Origin: Candidatus Hydrogenedentota bacterium
GTDB taxonomy: Bacteria > Hydrogenedentota > Hydrogenedentia > Hydrogenedentales > JAGMZX01
Direction of reading: 5' to 3'
Length of the DNA stretch: 58,235 nucleotides
Assembly: GCA_029556545.1 (NCBI GenBank)
Contig: JAKQEQ010000052.1
Span: forward strand, 1-58,235
The notes beneath the pieces were generated by a model. It ran no database searches. It saw only the letters and a program-made list of their open reading frames with translations, and was not told where the DNA came from. Position 1 is the stretch's first letter, and each line of letters starts with the position of its first letter. The translations under genes were made by a program, and so were the position numbers. Of the stretch, positions 3,711 through 15,613 are shown one piece after another.

Positions 3711-6700
3711 TCACATGCTCGTGATGGCGTAGACCATGTCGCTGAGGGCGCGGCGGAAGCCCTCATTCTCGACGAACTGCTTGTAGACCTGCGTGTCGTC
3801 CTTGAGCAGCCCCTGCATCACCCGGCCCAGCGCCTGGTCGTGGGCCATACGGGCCGTGTGCGGCGTGTTCGCGCGCGCGTTGCGGTACGCGGTGTCGGCG
3901 GCCACCTTGGGCGCGATGTCGTCCCGGATGCGCCGGGCCACGCGGTCGGCGTCGTCGAAGAGCGTGCCAAACTGCTCGTTGAAGGTCTGCAGGATATTGC
4001 TCAGGAGATCGATCTCCGGTTCCGGCTTTGCGCCTCCGCCTTCCGCGGGCACGGGGCCGATCTCCGAGTCCTCGTCGGCCATCGCGAGCGGAATCGCCTG
4101 TTTCTTCTCGACGCGGTAGCTGTCCATGTCGATGGCTTCGAGGATGCCCACGATGGGTCCCTCGTCCGGCGGCTTGGGCAGCTTCGGGATGAGCAGGTTG
4201 AGGAATATCGAGAGTTTCTCCCACTCGACGTTGTTGTACGGCATTACCGAGGCGAGGAAGTCGTAGGTCCGAACGAAGGTCTTCGCCTTCCCTTTGAAAT
4301 CCACCTGTTGGTCCTCGTCCAGCCGCTCGCAGTAGACGGCGACACACCCATCGAGGATGGGGTCCAGCGTATCCCGCTCCGCACCGGTCAGGAATAGCTC
4401 CACCACCTGCCGCACCTGCTCCGGCGCGTACACTTGCGCGGCGTCGAGCGATCCCTTCAGATCGTGCAGCTTGTTCGGGTCGGTCTCGTCGCTCAGCAGC
4501 GTCGTACGGTAGTAGTCCTGGAAGGCGTAGCTGATCGCCTCCGCGTTGTTATGGAAGTCAAGCACGAACACGTCGTGCTTCTTTGGGTGCGCCCGGTTCA
4601 GCCGCGACAGCGTCTGCACCGCCTTGATGCCCGCCAGCGGCTTGTCCACGTACATCGTGTGCAGCAGCGGCTCGTCGTAGCCCGTCTGGAACTTGTCCGC
4701 GCAGACGAGGAAGCGGTACGGGTCCTTCTGGAACGCATCGGCGATGTCGCCGCTGGGGAAGCCGTTCAGCGAGGACTCCGAGACCCTCGCGCCGCCATAG
4801 TCGTGCTCGCCGGAGAAGGCCACGATGGCCTTGTAGGGGCTCTTGCGCTCGACGAGGTAGTCCCGGATGGCGTGGAAGTACTGGATGGCATGCTCGATGC
4901 CGCTGCACACCACCATCGCGCGCGCCTCGCCGCCGATCTTGCCGCAGGCGATCACCTGGTCGTGGAAGTGGTCCACCATGATCTCGGCCTTCAGCCGGAT
5001 CGCGTGATCGTGGTGCTCCACGTAGCGGAGCAGCTTCTTCCGGGCCTTCTTCGTGTCGAACTCGGGGTCGTCCTCGATCTTCTTCACCAGCTTGTAGTAG
5101 CTCTCGACCGGCGTGTAGTGCCGCAGCACGTCGAGGATGAAGCCCTCCTGCACCGCCTGCTTCATCGTGTAGCTGTGGAAGGGCCGGTGCTTCACCTTCC
5201 CCTCCGCGTCCGGCGGCAGCGCCTCGCCGAACAGCTCCAGCGTCTTATTCTTCGGCGTGGCCGTGAACGCGAAGTAGCTCGCGTTCTTGAGCATCTTCCG
5301 CGCCTTCATCCGCCGCTCCAACTCCTCGTTCACCACGTCCTCGGGGTCGGGCGCGCCCTCGCCGTCGCCCAGCGCCCGGCTCATGGCCGACGTGGTCTTG
5401 CCGCCCTGGCTGGAGTGCGCCTCGTCGATCACGATCGCGAAGGTCCGCCCGGCCTCCCTGGCGACCTCGTCCAGGATGAACGGGAACTTCTGCACCGTCG
5501 AAACGATGATCTTCCTGCCCTGCTCGATGAACTTCCGCAGGTCGCCCGAGTGCACCGCGTGGCCCACCGTCGCGCGCACCTGCATGAACTGCTTGATCGT
5601 CCTCTGGATTTGATCATCGAGGATGCGCCGGTCGGTCACCACGATTACCGAGGTGAAGACCTCCTTGCCGCGGCGCTTCACGCCGATGAGCTGGTGCGCC
5701 AGCCACGCGATCGAGTTCGATTTGCCGCTGCCCGCCGAGTGCTGCACGAGGTAGCGCCTGCCCGCGCCGTGGTCCCGCACGTGCGCCAGCGCCCCGCGCA
5801 CCACGTCGAGCTGGTGGTAGCGCGGGAACACCTGCACGCGCCGCTTCCTGCCCGTCTTCCGGTCCTTCGTCTCGACGATCTGGGCGTAGTTTTCGAGGAT
5901 ATTCGTCAGCCCCGCCGGGGTCAGGACCTCCTTCCAGAGGTAGCCCGTCTTCAGGCCGTCCGGGTTCGGCGGGTTGCCCGCGCCGTCGTTCCAGCCCTTG
6001 TTGAACGGCAGGAACCACGACGCCTTGCCCTTGAGTTCCGTGCACATCCGCACTTCGGCGTCGTCCACCGCGAAGTGGACCGCGCACCGCCCGAACGCGA
6101 AGAGGGTCTCGCGCGGGTCGCGGTCGCGCCGATACTGGGCCACCGCGTCCTCGACGGTCTGCTTCGTCAGGCTGTTCTTCAGTTCAAAGGTGGCGAAGGG
6201 CAGGCCGTTGATGAACAGGCACAGATCGAGCGCGCGCCGGGTCTCGTCCATGCTGTAGGCCAGTTGCCGCGTGATCGAGAAGCGGTTTTTCGCGTGCAGC
6301 GCCGCGGCCTTCTCGTTGCCCGGCGAGGGCGTGCCGTAGAACAGGTCGAAGTGCAGCGGGCCGTGGTCCACGCCCGTGCGCAGCACGTCGATCACGCCGC
6401 GCTTGCCAACCTCGCCCGAAAGCCGCGCCAGGAACTTGAGCCGCTTGATGTCCTGCCTGTTCGTGTATGCCCCCAGGTCCAGCTTCCTGAACGCTTCCGG
6501 CTGCGTGGCCTGCAGGAAGGCGAAGAGCTGCACCACGTCCAGCGCGTGGGCACGGTCATAGTCCTGTGCGCACCCCGCGATGTAGCCCGGACCGCCGCCG
6601 AGAACCGCGGGCGGCTCCGCCACGGCCCCCGGCACGACCGCAAGGCCGTCCGCGCCCGTCATGTGGCGCATGATCAGGGTTTCCAGGCCCCTTTCACTGG

Positions 6701-6713
6701 TGTCGGTTGACAT
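3711..6713 (-). CDS. hsdR: Type I restriction enzyme, R (endonuclease/translocase) subunit HsdR
   Basis: The 1000-residue protein has the standard HsdR layout. The N-terminal PD-(D/E)XK nuclease has Asp 163, Glu 177 and Lys 179 in F-E-L-K-N. Two RecA-like superfamily 2 motor domains follow, with Walker A H-S-A-G-S-G-K-S near 326-333, a D-E-A-H box near 431-434 and T-A-T-P motif III, then a helical C-terminal region that docks on the methyltransferase. It cuts unmodified DNA after ATP-driven translocation in complex with HsdM and HsdS. The ATG at 6713 has a GAGGGAAG ribosome-binding site. Its first 21 codons (6645-6707) are repeated at 8605-8667 on the far side of the higBA module, showing that hsdR once began directly after the PD-(D/E)XK gene. 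The coding sequence is intact, so restriction should be functional. Confidence 0.95.
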   Translation of the reverse strand: MSTDTSERGLETLIMRHMTGADGLAVVPGAVAEPPAVLGGGPGYIAGCAQDYDRAHALDVVQLFAFLQATQPEAFRKLDLGAYTNRQDIKRLKFLARLSGEVGKRGVIDVLRTGVDHGPLHFDLFYGTPSPGNEKAAALHAKNRFSITRQLAYSMDETRRALDLCLFINGLPFATFELKNSLTKQTVEDAVAQYRRDRDPRETLFAFGRCAVHFAVDDAEVRMCTELKGKASWFLPFNKGWNDGAGNPPNPDGLKTGYLWKEVLTPAGLTNILENYAQIVETKDRKTGRKRRVQVFPRYHQLDVVRGALAHVRDHGAGRRYLVQHSAGSGKSNSIAWLAHQLIGVKRRGKEVFTSVIVVTDRRILDDQIQRTIKQFMQVRATVGHAVHSGDLRKFIEQGRKIIVSTVQKFPFILDEVAREAGRTFAIVIDEAHSSQGGKTTSAMSRALGDGEGAPDPEDVVNEELERRMKARKMLKNASYFAFTATPKNKTLELFGEALPPDAEGKVKHRPFHSYTMKQAVQEGFILDVLRHYTPVESYYKLVKKIEDDPEFDTKKARKKLLRYVEHHDHAIRLKAEIMVDHFHDQVIACGKIGGEARAMVVCSGIEHAIQYFHAIRDYLVERKSPYKAIVAFSGEHDYGGARVSESSLNGFPSGDIADAFQKDPYRFLVCADKFQTGYDEPLLHTMYVDKPLAGIKAVQTLSRLNRAHPKKHDVFVLDFHNNAEAISYAFQDYYRTTLLSDETDPNKLHDLKGSLDAAQVYAPEQVRQVVELFLTGAERDTLDPILDGCVAVYCERLDEDQQVDFKGKAKTFVRTYDFLASVMPYNNVEWEKLSIFLNLLIPKLPKPPDEGPIVGILEAIDMDSYRVEKKQAIPLAMADEDSEIGPVPAEGGGAKPEPEIDLLSNILQTFNEQFGTLFDDADRVARRIRDDIAPKVAADTAYRNARANTPHTARMAHDQALGRVMQGLLKDDTQVYKQFVENEGFRRALSDMVYAITSM
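6645..6707 (-). repeat. Copy A of the duplicated hsdR 5' segment
   Basis: This 63-bp segment inside the first codons of hsdR matches 8605-8667 with one mismatch (C at 6691, T at 8651), in direct orientation and offset by 1960 bp. It bounds the inserted higBA segment on the hsdR side. Confidence 0.9.
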
Positions 6714-6794
6714 GCTCTTCCCTCAGAGAGACCATCCCGCGTCTATCATATGCCAAAGATCCAACCGCCTGTCTTTTCCCGCTGTCTTGCCTAT

Positions 6795-6861
6795 TCCTTT
6801 GCTGAATCCTTTGCTAAATCCTTTGCTAAGGCCCGCCTGTTCGACCCTCTTTAGCAAAGGA
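6795..6861. repeat. 12-bp direct repeats plus one inverted copy
   Basis: Three head-to-tail copies of TCCTTTGCTRAR lie at 6795-6806, 6807-6818 and 6819-6830. An inverted copy, CTTTAGCAAAGGA, lies at 6849-6861. The cluster sits between the end of higA and the start of hsdR. It could be a set of protein-binding sites (for example for the HigA-type regulator) or the hairpin terminator of higBA. The third copy and the inverted copy can pair over 10 bp. Confidence 0.6.
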
Positions 6862-6954
6862 GTAATTGACTGTCCTTCAATGACTTACAATATATCATCA
6901 ATCGCGCCCCATAGCCCGAACCCCGATGGGCTTAAGAAATGCTCAAACCGCAAA

Positions 6955-8151
6955 TCATTCCTCAAAGAGGACTCGAACCTTCCTGTGTCCAAGCAGGTCA
7001 GTAAACAGCCTGTAGTTTCTCTTCTCAAAGCGGACTCGGCCGGCAAGCACGGCAGGATGGACGCGCAACCGTTCCGCCGTCTTGACTAACGTATCCTGCG
7101 TGATATTCCGCCGCGAGCCGGCGCTTTTCCAGACCGAAGCGGGGACCAGCGCCTCCATGGCAAACGCATCCGCCTGCTGTTCCGGTCCGTCGTCAGACGC
7201 CTCATCCAGGTCGTCGTAGAAGGTGCAGGCTTCCTCGGCATACAAGTGCAGCTTGACGTGCGCGAGTTCGTGCAACAACGTGAACCAGAAGTTGTCCAGG
7301 CGGTCATGGCGCAACGTAAGCGCCACGGCCGGTTCGCCGTTCGGAAGACACAACGCGGCGCCGTCGAGGCGGGTCTTCGGGAGATGCCGCTCCATAATCA
7401 CGTGGATACCACTCTTCCGAAGGAACTCGCGCGCTAGTTTCGGCCCCTCATCGAAATAGCTCAACGAAACAAGACGGTGCAGGAAATCATCGTCGATGCT
7501 CTTGATATCGAAAGCGGGCAATTCCTCGCGCGCGGCCAAAGTCGCCACCCGGATGTGCCAGGCCCGCAACGCATAATCGTCATTCTGCCTGCCGGTCCGC
7601 ACATGCCGCCGGTTGAACGTGGTCGCGAAAGAGGCCCGAAAGGCTGGAGGGGCAAACGCCGACAAAAGATCCTCCAAGTTCGCCCGCGCTTCCTGAACGG
7701 AACCCCGGAACCCGCCGAACCAGCCGCGTTTCAGCATTTCTCCGATGGGAAACTTGTCCGCGCCGAGCGTGGTGATACTGTCGTCGAGTTTCGCGCCCGG
7801 CTCGTGCAGCAGCACCTCCGCGGGAATGCCGAGCCCCGTGACCAGCTTCCGGATCATGGTCAGGCTCAGGTTCCGCTGCCCGGCCAGCACCTCGGATACT
7901 TTGCTCGCGCTGCCCAGGTAGGGAACAAGATCCTTCGGCTTCAGGCCTTGTTGCTCCATACGAAAGCGAATCGCCGTCAGCGGGTCCGGCAGGTCCACCG
8001 GAAACGCATCCGCCTCATATCGCTCCACAAGGAGAGATCGGAGTTCGAGTTCATCCCCTTCGGGCGTGCCCGGCTTGGCATCGAAGATCTCGTCGATACG
8101 CGCCAACGCCGCCGCGAGGTCCGCGTCGTTCTTGATGATCTTGGGGTTCAC
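6955..8151 (-). CDS. higA: HigA-type antitoxin fused to an ImmA/IrrE metallopeptidase domain
   Basis: The 398-residue protein starts with a HigA-like region. The helix-turn-helix (about 70-118) reads L-K-P-K-D-L-V-P-Y-L-G-S, then V-S-E-V-L-A-G-Q-R, then L-G-I-P-A-E-V-L. A long C-terminal ImmA/IrrE zinc-peptidase-like domain carries H-E-L-A-H (HExxH) near residue 290. The HTH should bind the operon operator and neutralise HigB. The ImmA part, known in other fused antitoxins, may allow regulated self-cleavage or stability control. The GTG start overlaps the higB stop (TAGTG), a sign of translational coupling. Toxin-first order is typical for higBA. The module lies inside the type I operon between duplicated hsdR 5' segments. 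Confidence 0.85.
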   Translation of the reverse strand: MNPKIIKNDADLAAALARIDEIFDAKPGTPEGDELELRSLLVERYEADAFPVDLPDPLTAIRFRMEQQGLKPKDLVPYLGSASKVSEVLAGQRNLSLTMIRKLVTGLGIPAEVLLHEPGAKLDDSITTLGADKFPIGEMLKRGWFGGFRGSVQEARANLEDLLSAFAPPAFRASFATTFNRRHVRTGRQNDDYALRAWHIRVATLAAREELPAFDIKSIDDDFLHRLVSLSYFDEGPKLAREFLRKSGIHVIMERHLPKTRLDGAALCLPNGEPAVALTLRHDRLDNFWFTLLHELAHVKLHLYAEEACTFYDDLDEASDDGPEQQADAFAMEALVPASVWKSAGSRRNITQDTLVKTAERLRVHPAVLAGRVRFEKRNYRLFTDLLGHRKVRVLFEE

Positions 8152-8444
8152 TATACCGTCTCCGCGTCGATCTTGTCATACTCGGAATGCGTTCCCACGA
8201 ATCGGATATAGACGATGCCCAACTGATAATTGATCTTGACCACCAGCCGATACGTGTTGCCCGAAATATTGAATACTACCCGGTTATCCGCCAGGATACT
8301 GGCACTGCCGTACCTCGCCTTCACCTCTGCCGGGCTCGTCCATGCCGCATGATGCACTTCGGCGTGCCACGCCTCCAGAGCCGCCTTCGCGCGCGGCTCA
8401 CGCTCCCAGTACGCCTGGAGCGTCTTTTTCGCTATGATCCGCAT
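8151..8444 (-). CDS. higB: HigB-family mRNA interferase toxin
   Basis: The 97-residue protein begins M-R-I-I-A-K-K-T-L-Q-A-Y and contains the HigB_toxin signatures: A-L-E-A-W-H-A-E near 20-27, W-x-S-P-A-E-V-K, then N-R-V-V-F-N-I-S-G-N-x-Y-R-L-V-V-K-I and Y-I-R-F-V-G-T-H-S-E-Y-D-K. HigB toxins are RelE-fold ribonucleases that cut mRNA on the ribosome. I chose the ATG at 8444 because the family starts at this point and the longer frame upstream is not conserved-looking. It is followed with a one-base overlap by its antitoxin. An inverted repeat 40 bases upstream is a likely autoregulatory operator. Confidence 0.88.
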   Translation of the reverse strand: MRIIAKKTLQAYWEREPRAKAALEAWHAEVHHAAWTSPAEVKARYGSASILADNRVVFNISGNTYRLVVKINYQLGIVYIRFVGTHSEYDKIDAETV

Positions 8445-8529: not shown

Positions 8530-8673
8530 TTAGCCGAGGTGTTGGCCCCGGTTTCCAAGCCCGTTTACGTGCTTTACGAACCCGCTCCCGGCGGATATCC
8601 TTGCGCCGTCCGCGCCCGTCATGTGGCGCATGATCAGGGTTTCCAGGCCCTTTTCACTGGTGTCGGTCGTCAC
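8530..8673 (-). pseudogene. Duplicated 5' end of hsdR, truncated
   Basis: A GTG-initiated frame of 47 codons starts inside the end of the PD-(D/E)XK gene. Its first 23 residues match HsdR residues 1-23 with few changes (T-D-T-S-E-K-G-L-E versus T-D-T-S-E-R-G-L-E). After that the sequence diverges and ends in TAA at 8530. It is the original hsdR start, left behind when the higBA segment entered; the intact hsdR copy now starts at 6713. Confidence 0.8.
8605..8667 (-). repeat. Copy B of the duplicated hsdR 5' segment
   Basis: This is the direct repeat partner of 6645-6707: 62 of 63 bases are identical. It marks the outer edge of the inserted 1.96-kb higBA segment. Confidence 0.9.
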
Positions 8674-9607
8674 TATGGCTATCCTCGGATTGCGTCATAC
8701 CGGCCAAGTGCACCGCAATGTGGTCCGGACCGAAATAGGTCTTTCCGTCCTCTGACAGTCTTGGGTCAACGGGTTCTTCCGGGAGTCTATCGAAACGCGA
8801 GGTGACTACCCATTGCGGCAGGCCCACTGAAAGTTCTTCGCCCGTGACTATATCATGCACAAAGGGGGCAAAAACGTATTCCCCGTCCCGGCGGCCCTCG
8901 CTATCACGGAATAGTTCGCGGTAGGGGAGATAGTACTTCTGAATCAGAGCCTCAGCGTCTATCTCCAAGTCCATCGAATCAGCCTCGGGCTCGGGGTCTA
9001 CAAGCTCCACACGTACAACGGGATCTTGCAGGGTAAGACAGTAGCTCCGGGAAACGGCTGCTGCTCCGTTGACGTTCCGAACCACGCCCGCTTGGGCCTT
9101 CCAGTGTTGTCTAACAGCCGGTGACGCGCCTGATTGTCGTGCCTTTGCTTCGACGACATGCCATGCCCCCGTATTGTCGTGACCGATCAGGTCCGGAAGC
9201 ATCCGGCTCCTGGCTGGCCGTACAATTTGGAGTGTGCCCTGCCGCTCCAGGAAACGGGCATGAGAGAGCCAGGCAATGTTCAGCACGTTCCCTGCAACTA
9301 CTTTTGCCATCCCCATTCCCAGCCAATAGGAGAGGGAGACCTTCTCACTCTGGTCGAGACTCCTGTAGTTTGGAGGATGCACGAAGCGCCTACCGTCGGA
9401 CTCCAGCGTGGCCAAAAGCGCCAGTACCTTGTGGCCGGTGAAGGCCCATCCACTCAATATGTTCCTAAGCGCCACAAGAGCGTTGGGCGCGCCAACTGTG
9501 ATCACCCCCCAGGCAAGTTCCGCAAGAGAGATGTTCAGGCCGAGGGAACGGTTAGCGACACGAGAAGGAGGCGTGAAATTCGATACATCCACATCGACCC
9601 GCGCCAT
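8654..9607 (-). CDS. Type I RM-associated protein with a PD-(D/E)XK nuclease-like motif
   Basis: The 317-residue protein is not one of the standard Hsd subunits. I do not recognise the family as a whole. Near residues 150-165 it contains R-M-L-P-D-L-I-G, then W-H-V-V-E-A-K-A, the spacing and context of the PD-(D/E)XK nuclease core (Asp in the first strand, E-x-K in the second). The start ATG at 9607 overlaps the hsdS stop (TGATG), and its 3' end overlaps the original hsdR GTG by 20 bases, so it belongs to the hsd operon by design. It may be an accessory nuclease, a DNA-end or phage-DNA sensor, or an anti-restriction counter-measure. No signal peptide or clear membrane segment is visible. Confidence 0.6.
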   Translation of the reverse strand: MARVDVDVSNFTPPSRVANRSLGLNISLAELAWGVITVGAPNALVALRNILSGWAFTGHKVLALLATLESDGRRFVHPPNYRSLDQSEKVSLSYWLGMGMAKVVAGNVLNIAWLSHARFLERQGTLQIVRPARSRMLPDLIGHDNTGAWHVVEAKARQSGASPAVRQHWKAQAGVVRNVNGAAAVSRSYCLTLQDPVVRVELVDPEPEADSMDLEIDAEALIQKYYLPYRELFRDSEGRRDGEYVFAPFVHDIVTGEELSVGLPQWVVTSRFDRLPEEPVDPRLSEDGKTYFGPDHIAVHLAGMTQSEDSHSDDRHQ

Positions 9608-10983
9608 CAAACGGCCTCCTCTTCCGGCACGTCCTCGGCGTCGCTCGCACCGATTTCTGTATCCGCCAGTTCGATTTCGACTTCGTCCGGCAGCCCTGCC
9701 GCCGCCGCGCGCACATCCAGCTTGCCCGTCACCACGTCCGCCGTCAGGCGCGTGCGGTATTCGCGGAGGAGTTCGATCTCGCGTTCGAGGCGGGCAATGG
9801 CGTTTGTTAAAGGTTGCGTCTGCTGTGTGGTGCAATGGACAATCGCGTCTTGTTCCTCTGGCGGCGCTACAGCGATTGAGATAGACAGCAACCGATCCTG
9901 AGTAAGCTTGGGTTGCGCCGCTCCTGAAATCCACGGTGCGTAGTTCAATGTCTCAAGAAGATGGGCGAGATAAAAAATACTGCCACGCTTCGGCTTCAGA
10001 ATATGGGCATGGTTGTTCACCCAGAACTTGCCTCTAGCGATGATCGCGAGCGGCAGATTACGAAGAACCAAGTTGGCCCCATCTTCCGCAATGAGCAGCA
10101 ATTCGTCGTCGAAGAGATAGTCATCCACTTTGTCGATCACGCCAGATGCACCATAATAATCGTAGGTCCTGGATGTCATAGCACCACGCTCAACCGCATT
10201 GAGTGGCACGCGTTGCGTATTTAAGCAGTGGAACTCGTTCTTGATCCTCGACACCTCCCAATGCTGCGGAATATCCCCGAGCCAGGGGATGCCGGAGGGT
10301 TTGAGGGGGACGTTGGGGTCGAGGCCCGCCTTCGCCGCGGCTTCGGCGGGTAAACCGCGGGTGACGGCGCGGTGGATGATGGCCTGTTTCTGTTCGTTGA
10401 GCAGGGCGATGATTTTCCGTTTCGCGCGGATGGCCCGGTCCAGCCGCCCGTTCGCCCAGTCCAGAAACCGCACTATCGCCGCCTGCTCCGAGGGGGGAGG
10501 GAGGGGAATGAACGCACGACTGAGGCGCTCGTAGTCGATATTCTGCCCTTCACGAATGCCTGTCACAAACAAAGTCAGGCTTCTGATGAAGTTGGCTGAC
10601 TTGAAATACGAGTTGAAATACCGCGGTTCGAAGTCATCACGTGGTCGAAGCACGGTGTATGCTGGGCTAATGATCCCACGTGCATGTGAGACCTCGATAC
10701 CGCCTTGAAACGACCTGAGGCTGATCACAAAGTCGCCAACCTCAACGAGCTTGAGGTTTTCAAGACCGTTCATGGCCGTCACCGTGCGTAGTCCATAGTC
10801 CTCTTTTCGCACAACACCCTTGCTTTGCGTTGCCGCAAGCAGCGGCTCATTCGGGAATCCCTTTTCAGTCCGTTCCTTGAAGAGGAACTTCATCCGTCGT
10901 GAGTCCCAATGCCCCGGCACCTCGCCGAGCCACGGCAGGCCCGAGTCCTTATACTTCGGATATGGCTTGAGAGCGGCGATCAT
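9607..10983 (-). CDS. hsdS: Type I restriction-modification specificity subunit HsdS
   Basis: The 458-residue protein has two target-recognition halves. Each begins with the typical module: D-S-G-L-P-W-L-G-E-V-P near residue 14 and P-S-G-I-P-W-L-G-D-I-P near residue 232. Each ends in conserved helices after P-L-P-P-P-S-E-Q and A-P-P-E-E-Q. The two halves read a bipartite DNA sequence and the helices scaffold HsdM. The protein ends in an acidic tail. The first ~15 codons are repeated in diverged form at 12007 and 12165, marking earlier insertion or duplication events between yhcG and hsdS. The stop overlaps the next gene by one base. Target specificity cannot be predicted from sequence alone. 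Confidence 0.95.
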   Translation of the reverse strand: MIAALKPYPKYKDSGLPWLGEVPGHWDSRRMKFLFKERTEKGFPNEPLLAATQSKGVVRKEDYGLRTVTAMNGLENLKLVEVGDFVISLRSFQGGIEVSHARGIISPAYTVLRPRDDFEPRYFNSYFKSANFIRSLTLFVTGIREGQNIDYERLSRAFIPLPPPSEQAAIVRFLDWANGRLDRAIRAKRKIIALLNEQKQAIIHRAVTRGLPAEAAAKAGLDPNVPLKPSGIPWLGDIPQHWEVSRIKNEFHCLNTQRVPLNAVERGAMTSRTYDYYGASGVIDKVDDYLFDDELLLIAEDGANLVLRNLPLAIIARGKFWVNNHAHILKPKRGSIFYLAHLLETLNYAPWISGAAQPKLTQDRLLSISIAVAPPEEQDAIVHCTTQQTQPLTNAIARLEREIELLREYRTRLTADVVTGKLDVRAAAAGLPDEVEIELADTEIGASDAEDVPEEEAV

Positions 10984-11073
10984 GAATGTCCTTCCCCTTC
11001 GCGCCCTTCGCGGTTTCGAGTGCTACACTCTTTTTGCTTCGCGCGCCACCTTCCCCATCCCTCACGCGACGAC
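10984..11073 (-). repeat. Leader repeat R2 immediately upstream of hsdS
   Basis: On the minus strand this segment shares a ~38-bp core (TCGCGTGAGGGATGGGGAAG and following bases) and a second CGCGAAGG-rich block with 12008-12075. Between the two blocks it carries a ~23-bp insertion that includes GAGTG-TAG-CACTC. It directly precedes the hsdS start, just as R1 precedes the hsdS-like start at 12007. Confidence 0.6.
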
Positions 11074-11158
11074 GCGAAGGAATGATTGATAAAAGACGAC
11101 CCAACCTCTCCGGGGAACGTTAGCTCGCAGTGCTTATATATTGAATATCCTCCAAGGC

Positions 11159-12007
11159 TCATGCTTTAAGCCCTTTCTCTTCAGAGTCCCCAGAAACAAC
11201 TGCGCCTAGCGCCTGCGCCGTTTCCAATGTCGCGCGTTCGGCATCACGTGTGAAGTTCTCGTCGCGAAGTCTGAGGAAGGCTTCCGGATTCTGCTCGCAG
11301 TGATAATAGTAGTGCCTCATACGAGCCATTTTTTCCTCGTCACGCTGCTGGCGTTTGGACGGTCTTATATGCCCAGTTAGTTTCATGCCGGTATGGGCGG
11401 CTTTGCCCAGTGAATACACAAGGACAACAAGCCCCCAGAAGGGATTTGCCCAACCCAATAAGGCGACTAATGACGGAATCACCACAAGCCACACCATCAA
11501 AGCGGCCTTTAATAGGTGAATGCCTATCCGCATTTGTCGGGCCTTGGCGTAAGCCTGTTCGCGGATTTCGTTCTGCGTTCTGAAGGGGACGCAGCGAAAG
11601 ACTTCTCGCAACCTATTACCTGATAACGCTCCCTCTGGGAATTCGTCTTTACCCACAATCCCCCATTTGATGATAATCTCGCCATCGTGGATGTAACCGT
11701 TGAGATGGTTGCTCGGGCGGACTTGCTCTAAGCAAATAGGCGAATCATCTAAACCAAATGCGCTTACCATCAGTGGTATGGGAAATCGCCGTATCCAGTG
11801 CGCCAGTTCCCGCTCCATGCTTTCCGCAACCTGTCCGGCGTCTATATGAGACAATATGCTCAGATTCAAGCAGGCAAAATAGTCGCCAATACGTGGTGGG
11901 AAATACTCGACAAAATATCCCTCACGGGATTCTCTAATGGTAACATAAAAAATCTGTTCCAAGCCCGGCTCCTTGTGCTGCGGATATGGCTTGCGACCGG
12001 CGGTCAT
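11159..12007 (-). CDS. Membrane protein of unknown function with an HsdS-derived N-terminus
   Basis: The 282-residue frame begins M-T-A-G-R-K-P-Y-P-Q-H-K-E-P-G, clearly related to the HsdS start M-I-A-A-L-K-P-Y-P-K-Y-K-D-S-G, and then continues into unrelated sequence. Residues ~185-225 hold two hydrophobic segments (L-L-K-A-A-L-M-V-W-L-V-V-I-P and F-W-G-L-V-V-L-V-Y). A C-terminal cytosolic part has H-Y-Y-Y-H-C-E-Q-N-P-E-A-F-L-R. I do not recognise the family. The start codon may be borrowed from the duplicated hsdS 5' end, so the ancestral start could lie downstream. The gene stands between yhcG and hsdS, so it is transcribed with the defence operon. A membrane-linked accessory role in defence is an inference. 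Confidence 0.55.
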   Translation of the reverse strand: MTAGRKPYPQHKEPGLEQIFYVTIRESREGYFVEYFPPRIGDYFACLNLSILSHIDAGQVAESMERELAHWIRRFPIPLMVSAFGLDDSPICLEQVRPSNHLNGYIHDGEIIIKWGIVGKDEFPEGALSGNRLREVFRCVPFRTQNEIREQAYAKARQMRIGIHLLKAALMVWLVVIPSLVALLGWANPFWGLVVLVYSLGKAAHTGMKLTGHIRPSKRQQRDEEKMARMRHYYYHCEQNPEAFLRLRDENFTRDAERATLETAQALGAVVSGDSEEKGLKA

Positions 12008-12075
12008 GGCTTTCCGCTCCCGTCGCGGCCTTCGCGGCTTCGCGCGCCACTTTCCCCTTCCCTCACGCGAAGACG
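12008..12075 (-). repeat. Leader repeat R1 upstream of the HsdS-like start
   Basis: This is the counterpart of 10984-11073: the minus strand shows the same TCGCGTGAGGG core followed by GTGGCGCGCGAAGC and a CGCGAAGG block, ending directly at the ATG at 12007. About 34 of 38 core bases agree between the copies. Confidence 0.6.
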
Positions 12076-12123
12076 AGAAGACGCAAAGAAAGACAAGACA
12101 GCCTGACCGGGCCTTAGCGGGCT

Positions 12124-12165
12124 GGCGTCCCTGTATTCCAGATATGGCTTGAGTTGGGCGATCAC
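12124..12165 (-). pseudogene. Remnant of the original hsdS 5' end
   Basis: GTG at 12165 overlaps the yhcG stop (GTGA) and opens a frame V-I-A-Q-L-K-P-Y-L-E-Y-R-D-A. This corresponds to HsdS residues 1-14 (M-I-A-A-L-K-P-Y-P-K-Y-K-D-S). The similarity then stops. The overlap shows hsdS once followed yhcG directly. Confidence 0.65.
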
Positions 12166-13265
12166 GACGCGCTCCTCTTCCTGCCTCGGCGCGTGATCTT
12201 GCGCGGCTGATCGTCTTGCGCGTCGCCGTCCTCTGTGGCATTCAGCCGGTAGAACTCGTGCAGCTTGGCCGCCAGCAGTTTTTTGTCCGGCAGTTGCGTT
12301 TGGTACTCCGCGATGAGCGCCGGGGAGGCGCTTCGGCTCAGCGCGTATTCGACCACCTCGTTGTCCTTGGACGCGCAGAGCAGGATACCGATGGCGGGGT
12401 TCTCGTGCGGCTTGCGGTGGTCTCGGTCGAGGGCTTCCAGGTAGAAGTTGAGCTTGCCGAGGTGCTCGGGCTCGAAGCGGTCCACCTTCAGTTCGATGGC
12501 GACGAGGCAGTTGAGTCCCCGGTGGAAGAAGAGCAGATCGAGTGTGAAATCCCGCCCGCCGACCTGGAGCGGGTACTGGGAGCCGACAAAGCAGAAGTCC
12601 CGGCCGAGTTCGATCAGGAATGCCTTGAGCCGTGCCAGCAGCCCGCGGTGCAGGTCGGTCTCGCTGTGCTCATCGGGCAGGTCGAGGAACTCGACCACAT
12701 AGGCGTCCTTGAAGACGCCGGCCGCGGCGGCGTGAGTTTGTCTCACCACTGGTGAGAGTTTTGGCGGGTTGAGCACCGCCCGCTCGAAGGCGGCGAGCCG
12801 AAACTGCCGTTCCAGTTCGCGCTTGCTCCACTGCTCGCGGATGGCCATCCGCAGGTAGAATTCCCGTTCTTCCGGGCGTTTGCACTGCCCGAGGATGATG
12901 AGGTTGTGTGTCCACGGCAATTGTGTCACCAGTGGTGTCACTTTTTCGTCCCCAGCATAAGCGTCATAAAATTGCCGCATCCGAAACAAATTACGGCGGG
13001 TAAAGCCGCGTAGCCCGGGCAGGGTGCGCTTCAAATGCCGCGCCAGTTGTTCGACGACACCCTCGCCCCATTCCGCGGCGGCAATCTTGCGGCTGATATA
13101 CTCGCCAAGCCGCCAGTACAGGCCGACGAGTTCGGCGTTGACCGTCTGATACGCGCGCTGCCGGGCGGATTGAATCAGATGGACTACCTCGGCGAAGGAC
13201 GTTTCGAGCGGCTGGGCCGCGGGCCGCCTGGCAAGGTCATTATCGGGGGGGCGCTTCCTGGTCAT
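12162..13265 (-). CDS. YhcG/DUF1016 family PD-(D/E)XK nuclease
   Basis: The 367-residue protein matches the YhcG family. The N-terminal DUF1016 helical domain has I-Q-S-A-R-Q-R-A-Y-Q-T-V-N, L-Y-W-R-L-G-E-Y-I and F-T-R-R-N-L-F-R-M-R-Q-F-Y. The middle carries L-P-W-T-H-N-L-I-I-L. The C-terminal PDDEXK nuclease has F-T-L-D-L-L-F-F-H-R and V-A-I-E-L-K-V, giving the Asp and E-x-K residues, and G-I-L-L-C-A-S-K-D motifs. Family members are common beside type I restriction genes and are predicted DNA nucleases, possibly acting on branched or invading DNA. Its start overlaps the hsdM stop by four bases (ATGA), so it is translationally coupled. The C-terminus is basic (T-R-R-G-R-K-R). Confidence 0.88.
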   Translation of the reverse strand: MTRKRPPDNDLARRPAAQPLETSFAEVVHLIQSARQRAYQTVNAELVGLYWRLGEYISRKIAAAEWGEGVVEQLARHLKRTLPGLRGFTRRNLFRMRQFYDAYAGDEKVTPLVTQLPWTHNLIILGQCKRPEEREFYLRMAIREQWSKRELERQFRLAAFERAVLNPPKLSPVVRQTHAAAAGVFKDAYVVEFLDLPDEHSETDLHRGLLARLKAFLIELGRDFCFVGSQYPLQVGGRDFTLDLLFFHRGLNCLVAIELKVDRFEPEHLGKLNFYLEALDRDHRKPHENPAIGILLCASKDNEVVEYALSRSASPALIAEYQTQLPDKKLLAAKLHEFYRLNATEDGDAQDDQPRKITRRGRKRSAS

Positions 13266-15613
13266 GCCTTTGCCCCTTTCAGCAGTCCATCCAGCAGCCC
13301 CTCGGCCTCCTTCTCGATTGCGAGAATGTCGGCGGCGATTTCTTCAAGTGTGCGCAGGGGCTGGGGCTTGTAGAAGTGGCGGGTGAAGCTGATCTCGTAC
13401 CCGATCTTGATGGCGTCTTTCTTGATCCATGCGTCGGGGGTGTAGGGCAGCACCTCGCGGCGGATGAACGCCTCGATGCCCTCCTTCGCCGAGGCTTCGG
13501 AGGGCAGGCCCCCCGGATTCCCGGATGCCGGAGCCTCCAGGAAGGGGATTTGTTCCGTGTCGCGGAGGTCAGAGTCGGGCTCGTACTCGACGACGGCGCG
13601 TTTGCCGTCCACGGTCGCGCCATACAGGCCGTAGAGCGGGTTGGCCTTGGCCTTTCCCGGCTTATGCACCTTGGCGATGACGGGCGGCGCGTCCTCGACG
13701 CGCCAGCTCACCGCCCTGAGGATGTGTTTGCGGTCGGCGGCGCCAAGCCGGATACGCGCGTCGTCGAGCGCCTCTTCCACGCGAGCGCGGAAGAGGTTGT
13801 GGTCCTCGAAGAGGCCATCGCCCAAGGCGTTCCGCAAGGCGGTGGCCGCATCCACGAGGCGTCCGTCGCGTTCCCAAGTCTTCGGATCGAGCAATTTCTT
13901 GCGCTTCTTTTCGGGCAGGCCCTTTGGGGGATCCTCGTCCGTTGGGTCGGACGTATCAGACGTATCGGACAAATCGGACAGGAATCGATCTGCAGAAGCG
14001 GCAATCGCGCCGAAATCTCTGAAGAGCGCGTCGCCGAACTCGTCGTAGATCGCGCCGCGGAGTTCCTCGTCGCCGGAGGCGAAACGCAGCGATTCGATGG
14101 CCTTGTGCGAGAGCTGGCTGTGCAGGCGCAGCGGTCGTTCGACGGTCACTTTCCAGTAGCCGAAGGCGGCGTTGGGGAAGATTTTCGACTCGGGCGTCTC
14201 CTGGAAATCGAGGAAAGCGCGGCAGATGCGGTCGATGTCCTCGGGGGACAGTTCGCAGTTCTTCTTGCCGAGGTTCTTGCGCAGGGGTCTGAACCACTGC
14301 GTGGCGTCGATGAGCTGGACCTTGCCCTTGCGGTGGTCCGGCTTGCGGTTGCTCAGCACCCAGACGTAGGTGGCGATGCCGGTGTTGTAGAAGAGGTTGA
14401 GCGGCAGGGCGACGATGGCCTCGAGCCAGTCGTTCTCGATGATGTAGCGGCGGATGTTGCTCTCGCCCTGGCCCGCGTCGCCGGTGAAGAGGGAGGAGCC
14501 GTTGTGCACCTCGGCGATCCGGCTGCCGAGGGCGGAATCGTGGTTCATTTTCGAGACCATGTTCGCCAGGAAGAGCATCTGTCCGTCGCTGGAGCGCGTG
14601 ACGAGGGAGAGTTCCTCACCGTCGTGCATGATCCGAAAGCGCGGGTCGCGCATGCCGTCCTTGCCGCCCATCGCCTCCAGGTCCTTCTTCCAGCTCTTGC
14701 CGTAGGGCGGATTTGAGAGCATGAAATCGAACTCCCGGGCGGGGAAGGCGTCGTGCGAAAGGGTGGACCACTCCGCGCCGCCGACGATGTGGTCGGCGTG
14801 GTCGCCCTCGCCCTTGAGCAGCATGTCGGCCTTGCAGACGGCGTAGGTCTCGGGGTTGATCTCCTGGCCGTAGAGGTGGCAGTCGATCTCCAGCCCGCGC
14901 CGGGCCGCGATGCCCTTGACCGTCTCCTCGGCGACGGTGAGCATGCCGCCGGTGCCGCCGGCGCAGTCGTAGAGCAGGTACAGACCGGACTTGAGTCGGT
15001 CCTCGATGGGCAGGAAGACGAGGTTGGCCATGAGGCGCACGGCGTCGCGCGGGGTCCAGTGTTCGCCCGCCTCCTCGTTGTTCTCCTCGTTGAATTTTCG
15101 GACCAGTTCCTCGAAAACGGTGCCCATCGCGTGGTTGTCGATACCCGCCGGAGAGAGATCAATCTCGGGGTCGAGAAACTTGCTGATGAGCGTGCCGAGC
15201 GCGTCGGCCTTGGACAGGGTCGAGAGCTGGTTGCGGAACTTGAAATTGTCCAGGATGTCCTGAACATTCGGCGAATAGCCGTTCAGGTAGTCCTCGAAGT
15301 CCGCAAGGAGCTGCTGCTGGCTGCCGCGCGACTTGAGGTCGCGCAGGACGAACTTGGACGTGTTGTAGAACGCCTTGTCCGCCGCCGCGGCCAGCGCGGC
15401 GCGCTGCTCCGTGATGCCCGCGTCGTCGAGCATCCTCTTCGCGTCGAGCACGGCCTGCTTGGTGGGCTCCAGCACGGCGTCGAGCCGCCGCAGCACGCAC
15501 ATGGGCAGGATCACGTCCGGGTACTTGCCCCGCTTGAACAGGTCGCGGAGCACGTCGTCCGCGATGCCCCAGATGAAGGAAACAATCTTGTTGTGCGTGG
15601 CTTGGTCCATCAT
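13262..15613 (-). CDS. hsdM: Type I DNA methyltransferase subunit HsdM
   Basis: The 783-residue protein has the N-terminal HsdM helical domain (K-I-V-S-F-I-W-G-I-A-D-D near residue 9). The N6-adenine methyltransferase core follows: D-C-A-G-G-T-G-G-M-L (SAM-binding motif I) and the catalytic S-N-P-P-Y-G-K. It methylates adenine in the HsdS-defined site and is required for restriction complex assembly. At 783 residues it is longer than the common ~520-residue HsdM. The extra C-terminal region (from about 520) includes a low-complexity T-S-D-T-S-D stretch encoded by a 9-bp tandem repeat, then a long tail. Start ATG-ATG follows a GGGG element. It heads the minus-strand operon hsdM-yhcG-(membrane protein)-hsdS-(nuclease-like)-(higBA)-hsdR. 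Confidence 0.95.
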   Translation of the reverse strand: MMDQATHNKIVSFIWGIADDVLRDLFKRGKYPDVILPMCVLRRLDAVLEPTKQAVLDAKRMLDDAGITEQRAALAAAADKAFYNTSKFVLRDLKSRGSQQQLLADFEDYLNGYSPNVQDILDNFKFRNQLSTLSKADALGTLISKFLDPEIDLSPAGIDNHAMGTVFEELVRKFNEENNEEAGEHWTPRDAVRLMANLVFLPIEDRLKSGLYLLYDCAGGTGGMLTVAEETVKGIAARRGLEIDCHLYGQEINPETYAVCKADMLLKGEGDHADHIVGGAEWSTLSHDAFPAREFDFMLSNPPYGKSWKKDLEAMGGKDGMRDPRFRIMHDGEELSLVTRSSDGQMLFLANMVSKMNHDSALGSRIAEVHNGSSLFTGDAGQGESNIRRYIIENDWLEAIVALPLNLFYNTGIATYVWVLSNRKPDHRKGKVQLIDATQWFRPLRKNLGKKNCELSPEDIDRICRAFLDFQETPESKIFPNAAFGYWKVTVERPLRLHSQLSHKAIESLRFASGDEELRGAIYDEFGDALFRDFGAIAASADRFLSDLSDTSDTSDPTDEDPPKGLPEKKRKKLLDPKTWERDGRLVDAATALRNALGDGLFEDHNLFRARVEEALDDARIRLGAADRKHILRAVSWRVEDAPPVIAKVHKPGKAKANPLYGLYGATVDGKRAVVEYEPDSDLRDTEQIPFLEAPASGNPGGLPSEASAKEGIEAFIRREVLPYTPDAWIKKDAIKIGYEISFTRHFYKPQPLRTLEEIAADILAIEKEAEGLLDGLLKGAKA
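13947..13982. repeat. 9-bp tandem repeat inside hsdM (4 units)
   Basis: Four in-frame units are present: TCGGACGTA, TCAGACGTA, TCGGACAAA and TCGGACAGG. On the coding strand they give the S-D-T-S-D-type linker. The unit is the same as those at 16903-16929 and 38791-38898. Confidence 0.85.

Follow-up and report, generated by a model that had tools for sequence, protein, structure and literature searches.

Duplicated 5' ends of hsdS and hsdR as probable scars of gene insertion in type I restriction-modification operons

Why should the 5' end of a restriction-modification gene be present several times in one operon, with other genes lying between the copies? This question is raised by an operon on the minus strand of a 58,235-nucleotide stretch of DNA from a Candidatus Hydrogenedentota bacterium (assembly GCA_029556545.1, contig JAKQEQ010000052.1), the whole of which is here called the window. 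Homologues of hsdM, hsdS and hsdR detected with Pfam lie together in this operon, which makes it a type I restriction-modification operon. Its genes follow one another in the order hsdM, yhcG/DUF1016, a cargo open reading frame (ORF), hsdS, an unnamed ORF, higBA and hsdR, and yhcG and hsdM overlap by 4 nt. Its features, with the partial copies of hsd genes listed as putative scars, are:

13262..15613, minus strand: hsdM, type I methyltransferase subunit (Pfam N6_Mtase, HsdM_N)
12162..13265, minus strand: yhcG/DUF1016 PDDEXK nuclease (Pfam YhcG_C, DUF1016_N; PADLOC PDC-S02)
12127..12167, minus strand: hsdS 5' copy 1, putative scar, GTG at 12165, about 13 codons (blastn to the real hsdS start)
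12008..12101, minus strand: leader 1, palindrome-like, reads ..FFASSRLRVREG (alignment to L198 of G1162; direct repeat D6, 91%)
11960..12007, minus strand: hsdS 5' copy 2, in-frame fusion with the cargo ORF (shuffle test, blastn)
11159..12007, minus strand: cargo ORF, 282 aa (ORF; homologue in G026)
10984..11079, minus strand: leader 2, immediately upstream of the real hsdS (second leader copy)
9607..10983, minus strand: hsdS, specificity subunit, equal to 5' copy 3 (Pfam Methylase_S)
8654..9607, minus strand: unnamed ORF between hsdS and hsdR, about 317 aa (ORF call)
8605..8673, minus strand: hsdR 5' end, putative scar, GTG at 8673, 23 codons (63 nt, 98% identical to the start of the real hsdR)
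6955..8444, minus strand: higB (8444-8151) and higA/M78 (8151-6955), toxin-antitoxin cargo (Pfam HigB_toxin, Peptidase_M78; PADLOC PD-Lambda-2 A and B)
3711..6713, minus strand: hsdR, restriction subunit (Pfam HSDR_N, SWI2_SNF2)

The initial annotation had pointed out three hsdS-like starts, at 12165, 12007 and 10983, and all three are present at a similarity above chance. Copy 1 begins at GTG 12165 (VIAQLKPYLEYRD) and overlaps the yhcG stop by 4 nt, copy 2 begins at ATG 12007 (MTAGRKPYPQHKEPG), and copy 3 is the real hsdS, starting at ATG 10983 (MIAALKPYPKYKDSG). When copies 2 and 3 were aligned together with their leaders the local score was 88, whereas 1000 shuffles reached at most 29, and blastn gave 2e-18 over 144 columns; with its leader, copy 2 spans 12080-11960. 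Copy 1 reached a local score of 37 against copy 3 (shuffle maximum 28), and by blastn its positions 12167-12127 were 78% identical to the real hsdS start over 41 nt (8e-5). The starts at 12007 and 10983 are indeed each preceded by the same leader (12080-12037 and 11079-11036, 91% identical), while copy 1 has no leader in front of it. Judging from this anatomy, copy 1 is presumably the original, yhcG-coupled start of hsdS; an empty operon with the equivalent yhcG/hsdS overlap is found on a plasmid (L257), whose YhcG is 72% identical. Chance similarity or an assembly error is a barely conceivable source of these copies. The source genome is a fragmented draft of 195 contigs, but the three copies differ mutually (67-78%), so that no repeated read path produced them, and chance is opposed by the shuffle tests and by independent cases that include Rubrivivax pictus strain W35.

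The gene enclosed by copies 2 and 3 encodes 282 amino acids in frame from ATG 12007 (MTAGRKPYPQHKEPGLEQIFY...), with a single hydrophobic stretch at residues ~163-200. It has no family match in Pfam, NCBIfam or PADLOC, no homologue was found in plasmids, and its sole clear homologue among 119 genomes is in G026. That homologue has its own, different N-terminus and aligns only from residue ~19, the point where the hsdS-derived part of the cargo ends. Residues 1 to ~17, and with them probably the start of translation, thus derive from the hsdS 5' copy. In G026 itself (locus L116, 70-1700) the homologue lies, as read by eye, between partial repeats of a methyltransferase-like 3' end (..RVEYLFGLYEELTA and ..RVECLYEELTGRV), an arrangement that is possibly a 3'-end version of a scar.

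The leader gave no match elsewhere in the source genome at E<=0.001, and none was found in viral contigs and plasmids. Two readings of it were rejected: that it is a genome-wide repeat, its short motif CGCGAAGNNCGCGAAG being only mildly above control, and that it is a part of hsdS, as among the operons surveyed it is present in the window and in G1162 only. In G1162 a GxxExxY gene (TIGR04256, 129.8 bits) lies between hsdM and the contig end, and its 3' end and 3' flank constitute the leader, which runs into the hsdS start; this operon is divided between two contigs, each of them terminating in the repeat, and we infer that they are continuous. The window leader aligns to the G1162 sequence L198 with a score of 76 (shuffle maximum 30), and the spacer that follows copy 1 has FFASSRLRVREG at the place of the terminal NFASSRLRAREG of the GxxExxY protein. 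Because the leader matches the 3' end and flank of the gene in the hsdM-hsdS gap of G1162, it is probably the tail of a lost GxxExxY insertion; the window operon lacks the gene itself. In G1162 the real hsdS is preceded by a tandem array of three 173-bp units, each made up of leader and hsdS 5' end, with no gene between them, so the unit can evidently amplify alone.

GxxExxY genes were also inspected at 30 loci (L201-L230) from relatives of the window genome, of which L214 is from the window's own genome. Inverted repeats built from a 7-10 nt unit within 220 bp bracket 26 of 29 of these genes; at L214 the sequence CACCACGAAGCCGCGAAGGACACGAAG flanks the gene on both sides, and the arm sequence varies between loci. 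The GxxExxY genes may form a family that is mobile or associated with repeats, and the term is scarce in the open literature searched.

The copies could alternatively be selected regulatory or translation-coupling elements, acting as short upstream ORFs and a hairpin leader, and not scars at all. The leader folds strongly, copy 2 and the cargo share a reading frame, and G1162 keeps its tandem leader and 5' units, all of which would suit such a role. The copies found across operons nevertheless vary in length and place, the protein sequence of one of them (in R. pictus) has decayed, and most operons have none, making selection for regulation quite unlikely.

The same pattern had been noted at the other end of the operon, and the analogy holds. 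At hsdR 63 nt of the 5' end are duplicated at 98% identity (1 of 63 nt differs), the copies lying 1960 bp apart with higBA downstream of the scar; at hsdS as well as at hsdR, cargo is therefore bounded by 5' copies of the hsd gene that follows it, as had been proposed. The duplication in the window excludes the start codon, and the end of the unnamed ORF overlaps the scar by 17-20 nt. HigBA matches PD-Lambda-2 components A and B (145 and 461 bits, PADLOC) and is a predicted defence pair. The presence of a duplication at hsdR also bears on the idea that the extra hsdS starts are silent cassettes for phase-variable shuffling of specificity. Phase-variable type I loci do have hsdS fragments beside hsdS, which carry recognition domains and are usually inverted. 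The copies in the window end before the first target-recognition domain and are in direct orientation, and with hsdR affected in like manner we regard silent cassettes as very improbable.

A similar higBA occupies the hsdS-hsdR gap in other lineages (HigA 62% in L141), and truncated higA remnants occur in the same gap in L142 and L090, which shows repeated gain and loss. In the unnamed ORF (8654-9607), which overlaps hsdS, D..EAK residues resemble by eye a PDDEXK nuclease motif, and a weak relative of it is located at the equivalent position in L049. Just upstream of hsdR, at 6760-6865 on the minus strand, the unit TTAGCAAAGGA is present three times together with an inverted copy, TCCTTTGCTAA, in a layout like that of the hsdS leader. 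Of 98 operons, 17 from unrelated lineages (examples are L015, L037, L062, L063, L141 and L143) carry a direct repeat, TTGAYGGNTANTTGA, in the region 15-55 nt upstream of hsdR. In most cases it ends 14 nt ahead of the hsdR start, and in some operons another copy adjoins the upstream gene. This repeat has the appearance of a regulatory element conserved in the hsd family studied here.

If two insertions in one operon reflect a recurring process, as had been suggested for the window, scars should be detectable elsewhere. We collected 80 operons by HsdM similarity and ~60 by HsdR similarity (~120 non-redundant) and used the first 40 residues of every HsdS, HsdR and HsdM protein as queries against the 4 kb that lie upstream. 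Start-anchored 5' copies were found in five operons beyond the window, at hsdS in L023 and G1162 and at hsdR in L031, L077 and L154, with scores of 54-111 against a maximum of 43 for reversed sequences. None of 115 hsdM starts had an upstream start-anchored copy, nor did any of 254 control genes. In this protein-level search the enrichment was 5/209 versus 0/369 controls (Fisher p=0.006); under a more stringent criterion at the DNA level it was 3/206 versus 1/419 (p=0.11), which is not significant. No scar was found in 21 operons on viral contigs. A match in L135 was discarded, its presumed start being the internal second repeat of HsdS, and weak matches of the L027/L151 type fell inside the null range and were not counted. 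With five further independent cases in several lineages, the recurrence of scars is real, yet scars are uncommon.

The junctions themselves are often occupied. The gap between hsdM and hsdS is at least 400 bp in 78 of 108 operons (median 1483 bp), and that between hsdS and hsdR in 65 of 94 (median 1243 bp). Most operons with cargo in these gaps show no scar, suggesting either that scars decay or that most cargo enters otherwise. Duplicated 3' ends of hsdM or hsdS downstream of cargo gave one plausible case, hsdM of L154 (score 57, null maximum 47), and scars thus appear to be mostly 5' ends. At 10150-10640 of L154 the hsdM 3' end recurs 343 nt downstream (ILLLKKETEGLLGEII), past a small ORF, as a 3'-end duplication flanking an insert.

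Two of the scarred operons can be compared with relatives that indicate how they arose. The operon of R. pictus W35 (L031) is matched at 88-92% DNA identity by three empty-site relatives (L019, L020, L044), in which hsdS and hsdR overlap at ATGA. Relative to these it contains ~1.18 kb of extra DNA, and ~93 bp spanning the hsdS/hsdR overlap are present twice, a segment that extends from ~11 nt ahead of the hsdR start to 81 nt past it. Its insert encodes a nucleotidyltransferase (weak MntA match) and a HEPN-like partner (PADLOC PDC-M05B), an MNT/HEPN pair. The C-terminus of the HEPN protein might be an hsdS-derived tail; homologues end at about that point and their tails are variable. Its hsdR as a whole is 88-91% identical to those of the relatives, compared with 90% for the rest of the operon, and so shows no excess distance. 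The anatomy of this operon looks like that of an insertion with a long target duplication.

The second, from the Betaproteobacteria (L023), has an hsdS scar followed by an internal fragment of a different yhcG and then by the junction of a small ORF with hsdS; these parts are arranged as in the operons L013, L019, L020 and L031 and are 71-82% identical to them in DNA sequence. The comparison is strong evidence that it acquired a new gene and a new hsdS start by recombination with another operon type, its resident start being left behind as the scar. The initial annotation had taken the hsdS copies of the window to be older than those of hsdR on the ground that they are more diverged; this dating finds no support, since the two copies in L023 come from different operon types, and divergence may reflect the distance of the donor and not age. 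A Rhodoblastus operon (L077) has DarTG, then an hsdR scar that overlaps the darG stop and extends ~10 nt upstream of the start, then a two-gene pair and hsdR. This pair, and the pair preceding the scar in L154, were read by eye as DUF433/DUF5615. From the contents of L031, L077, L154 and the window, the inserts between hsdS and hsdR appear to be mostly toxin-antitoxin-like.

Taken across these operons, the hsd 5' copies are probably insertion scars, formed by recombination at overlapping hsd junctions that duplicated 35-95 bp, and not the product of a site-specific element. Scar breakpoints fall 36-84 nt after the start codon, the cargo differs each time, and no recombinase genes or conserved insert ends were found among the inserts examined, so a site-specific element is unlikely. 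The recombinase signature for which the initial annotation had proposed to look was thus not found, a fixed sequence at the boundaries was not found either, and G1162 displays plain tandem amplification without cargo. The ancestral operon would have been hsdM-yhcG-hsdS...hsdR with genes overlapping by 4 nt, as in relatives, and new genes would have entered at the yhcG/hsdS and ORF/hsdR junctions, each event leaving the recipient's first 13-28 codons of the following hsd gene ahead of the newcomer and an intact hsd gene behind it. Duplication of the junction would let DNA enter between overlapping genes with neither of them broken, and such events could then survive. At hsdS, the anatomy suggests that a GxxExxY-type gene and its palindromic flank were inserted first, with the 3' tail persisting as the leader; next, leader and hsdS 5' end would have undergone duplication, and the 282-aa ORF would have become fused in frame with the second copy. 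This ORF may now be translated from hsdS-derived signals. At hsdR, the higBA pair of PD-Lambda-2 type would have entered with the 63-bp duplication. We infer this order of events at hsdS, as well as one insertion per copy and a selection for duplicative events by gene overlap.

The recombination would be of a general class, for which two routes can be considered. In homology-facilitated illegitimate recombination with another hsd operon, incoming cargo and downstream hsd gene would pair with the resident hsd gene at one end and, at the other, join non-homologously inside the resident hsd 5' end, the downstream copy being that of the donor. This is quite possible, if somewhat short of an even chance. 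In L023 the yhcG fragment, the small ORF and the hsdS start of the donor follow one another as they do in the donor, and the leader-hsdS junction of the window is of the G1162 type. The hsdR of L031 gives no sign of a donor allele, and the copies at hsdR in the window, differing at a single position, likewise speak against this route. A parallel logic has been put forward to account for T6SS effector-immunity arrays and Rhs tips (PMC5361080), which have in common with the present case one homologous and one illegitimate end, with displaced partial genes remaining as a record; there, however, 3' ends or immunity genes persist, whereas here it is 5' ends, in the setting of a restriction-modification operon.

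Insertion with a long target duplication is just as credible a route. The duplication in L031 includes the last ~11 nt of hsdS, that in L077 reaches upstream of the start, and the near-identity of the 63 nt at hsdR in the window also favours it, but the copies in L023 derive from different operons, the window hsdR duplication lacks the start codon, and no donor sites or common insert ends were found. Such insertion of restriction-modification genes was reportedly described by Nobusato et al. in 2000. It has been reviewed (PMC3874152 section 7) and shown (PMC1643837), providing a precedent. A long direct duplication, of the order of 100 bp, and an empty site in relatives (L031) are shared with the known process, and the inserts in the window are flanked by direct duplications of 63 nt at hsdR and 41-144 nt at hsdS, in the range of ~50-100 bp or more. 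In the known cases, however, restriction-modification genes are the insert, whereas in the present cases a toxin-antitoxin or accessory gene is inserted and the type I operon serves as target; the duplications here also lie at overlapping hsd starts, and those of L023 come from different operons. On the sequences compared, homology-facilitated illegitimate recombination would explain L023, and a long target duplication fits L031 and hsdR of the window. One mechanism may therefore not cover all cases.

Defence genes inside type I operons are known. In the RptR island DarTG2 lies between hsdS and hsdR, and this gap has been suggested to be a recombination hotspot (PMC12255303). Both that island and the operons described here have toxin-antitoxin or defence genes between hsdS and hsdR; the passages on the island mention no duplicated hsd 5' ends or insertion mechanism, and leave unexplained how genes enter without breaking overlapping, co-translated genes. 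What is new in relation to the known hotspot is the scar that records gene entry. Our search of the open literature for partial hsdS or hsdR duplication in type I restriction returned nothing, though an earlier mention is possible. For the window operon itself an empty-site relative was not found, the nearest relatives (L108, L109) carrying other cargo; the empty junctions seen were in distant operons (L257).

The scars mark both the insertion site and the resident copy, and the events in L031 and L023 can be reconstructed against empty or donor operons. A search for scars could be applied to any overlapping operon and would give a rate of gene gain by such a route. It is also conceivable, though we think it fairly unlikely, that an hsd 5' end and its cargo form a cassette that is moved in and cleanly out by homologous recombination, so that type I operons would be integron-like collectors of defence genes that need no recombinase, with the palindromic GxxExxY flanks as extra homology; overlapping hsd junctions would then be a recurrent entry port into any related type I operon. 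The genes spliced into the operon are probably antiviral, and the scars show how bacteria pack new defence genes into existing operons.
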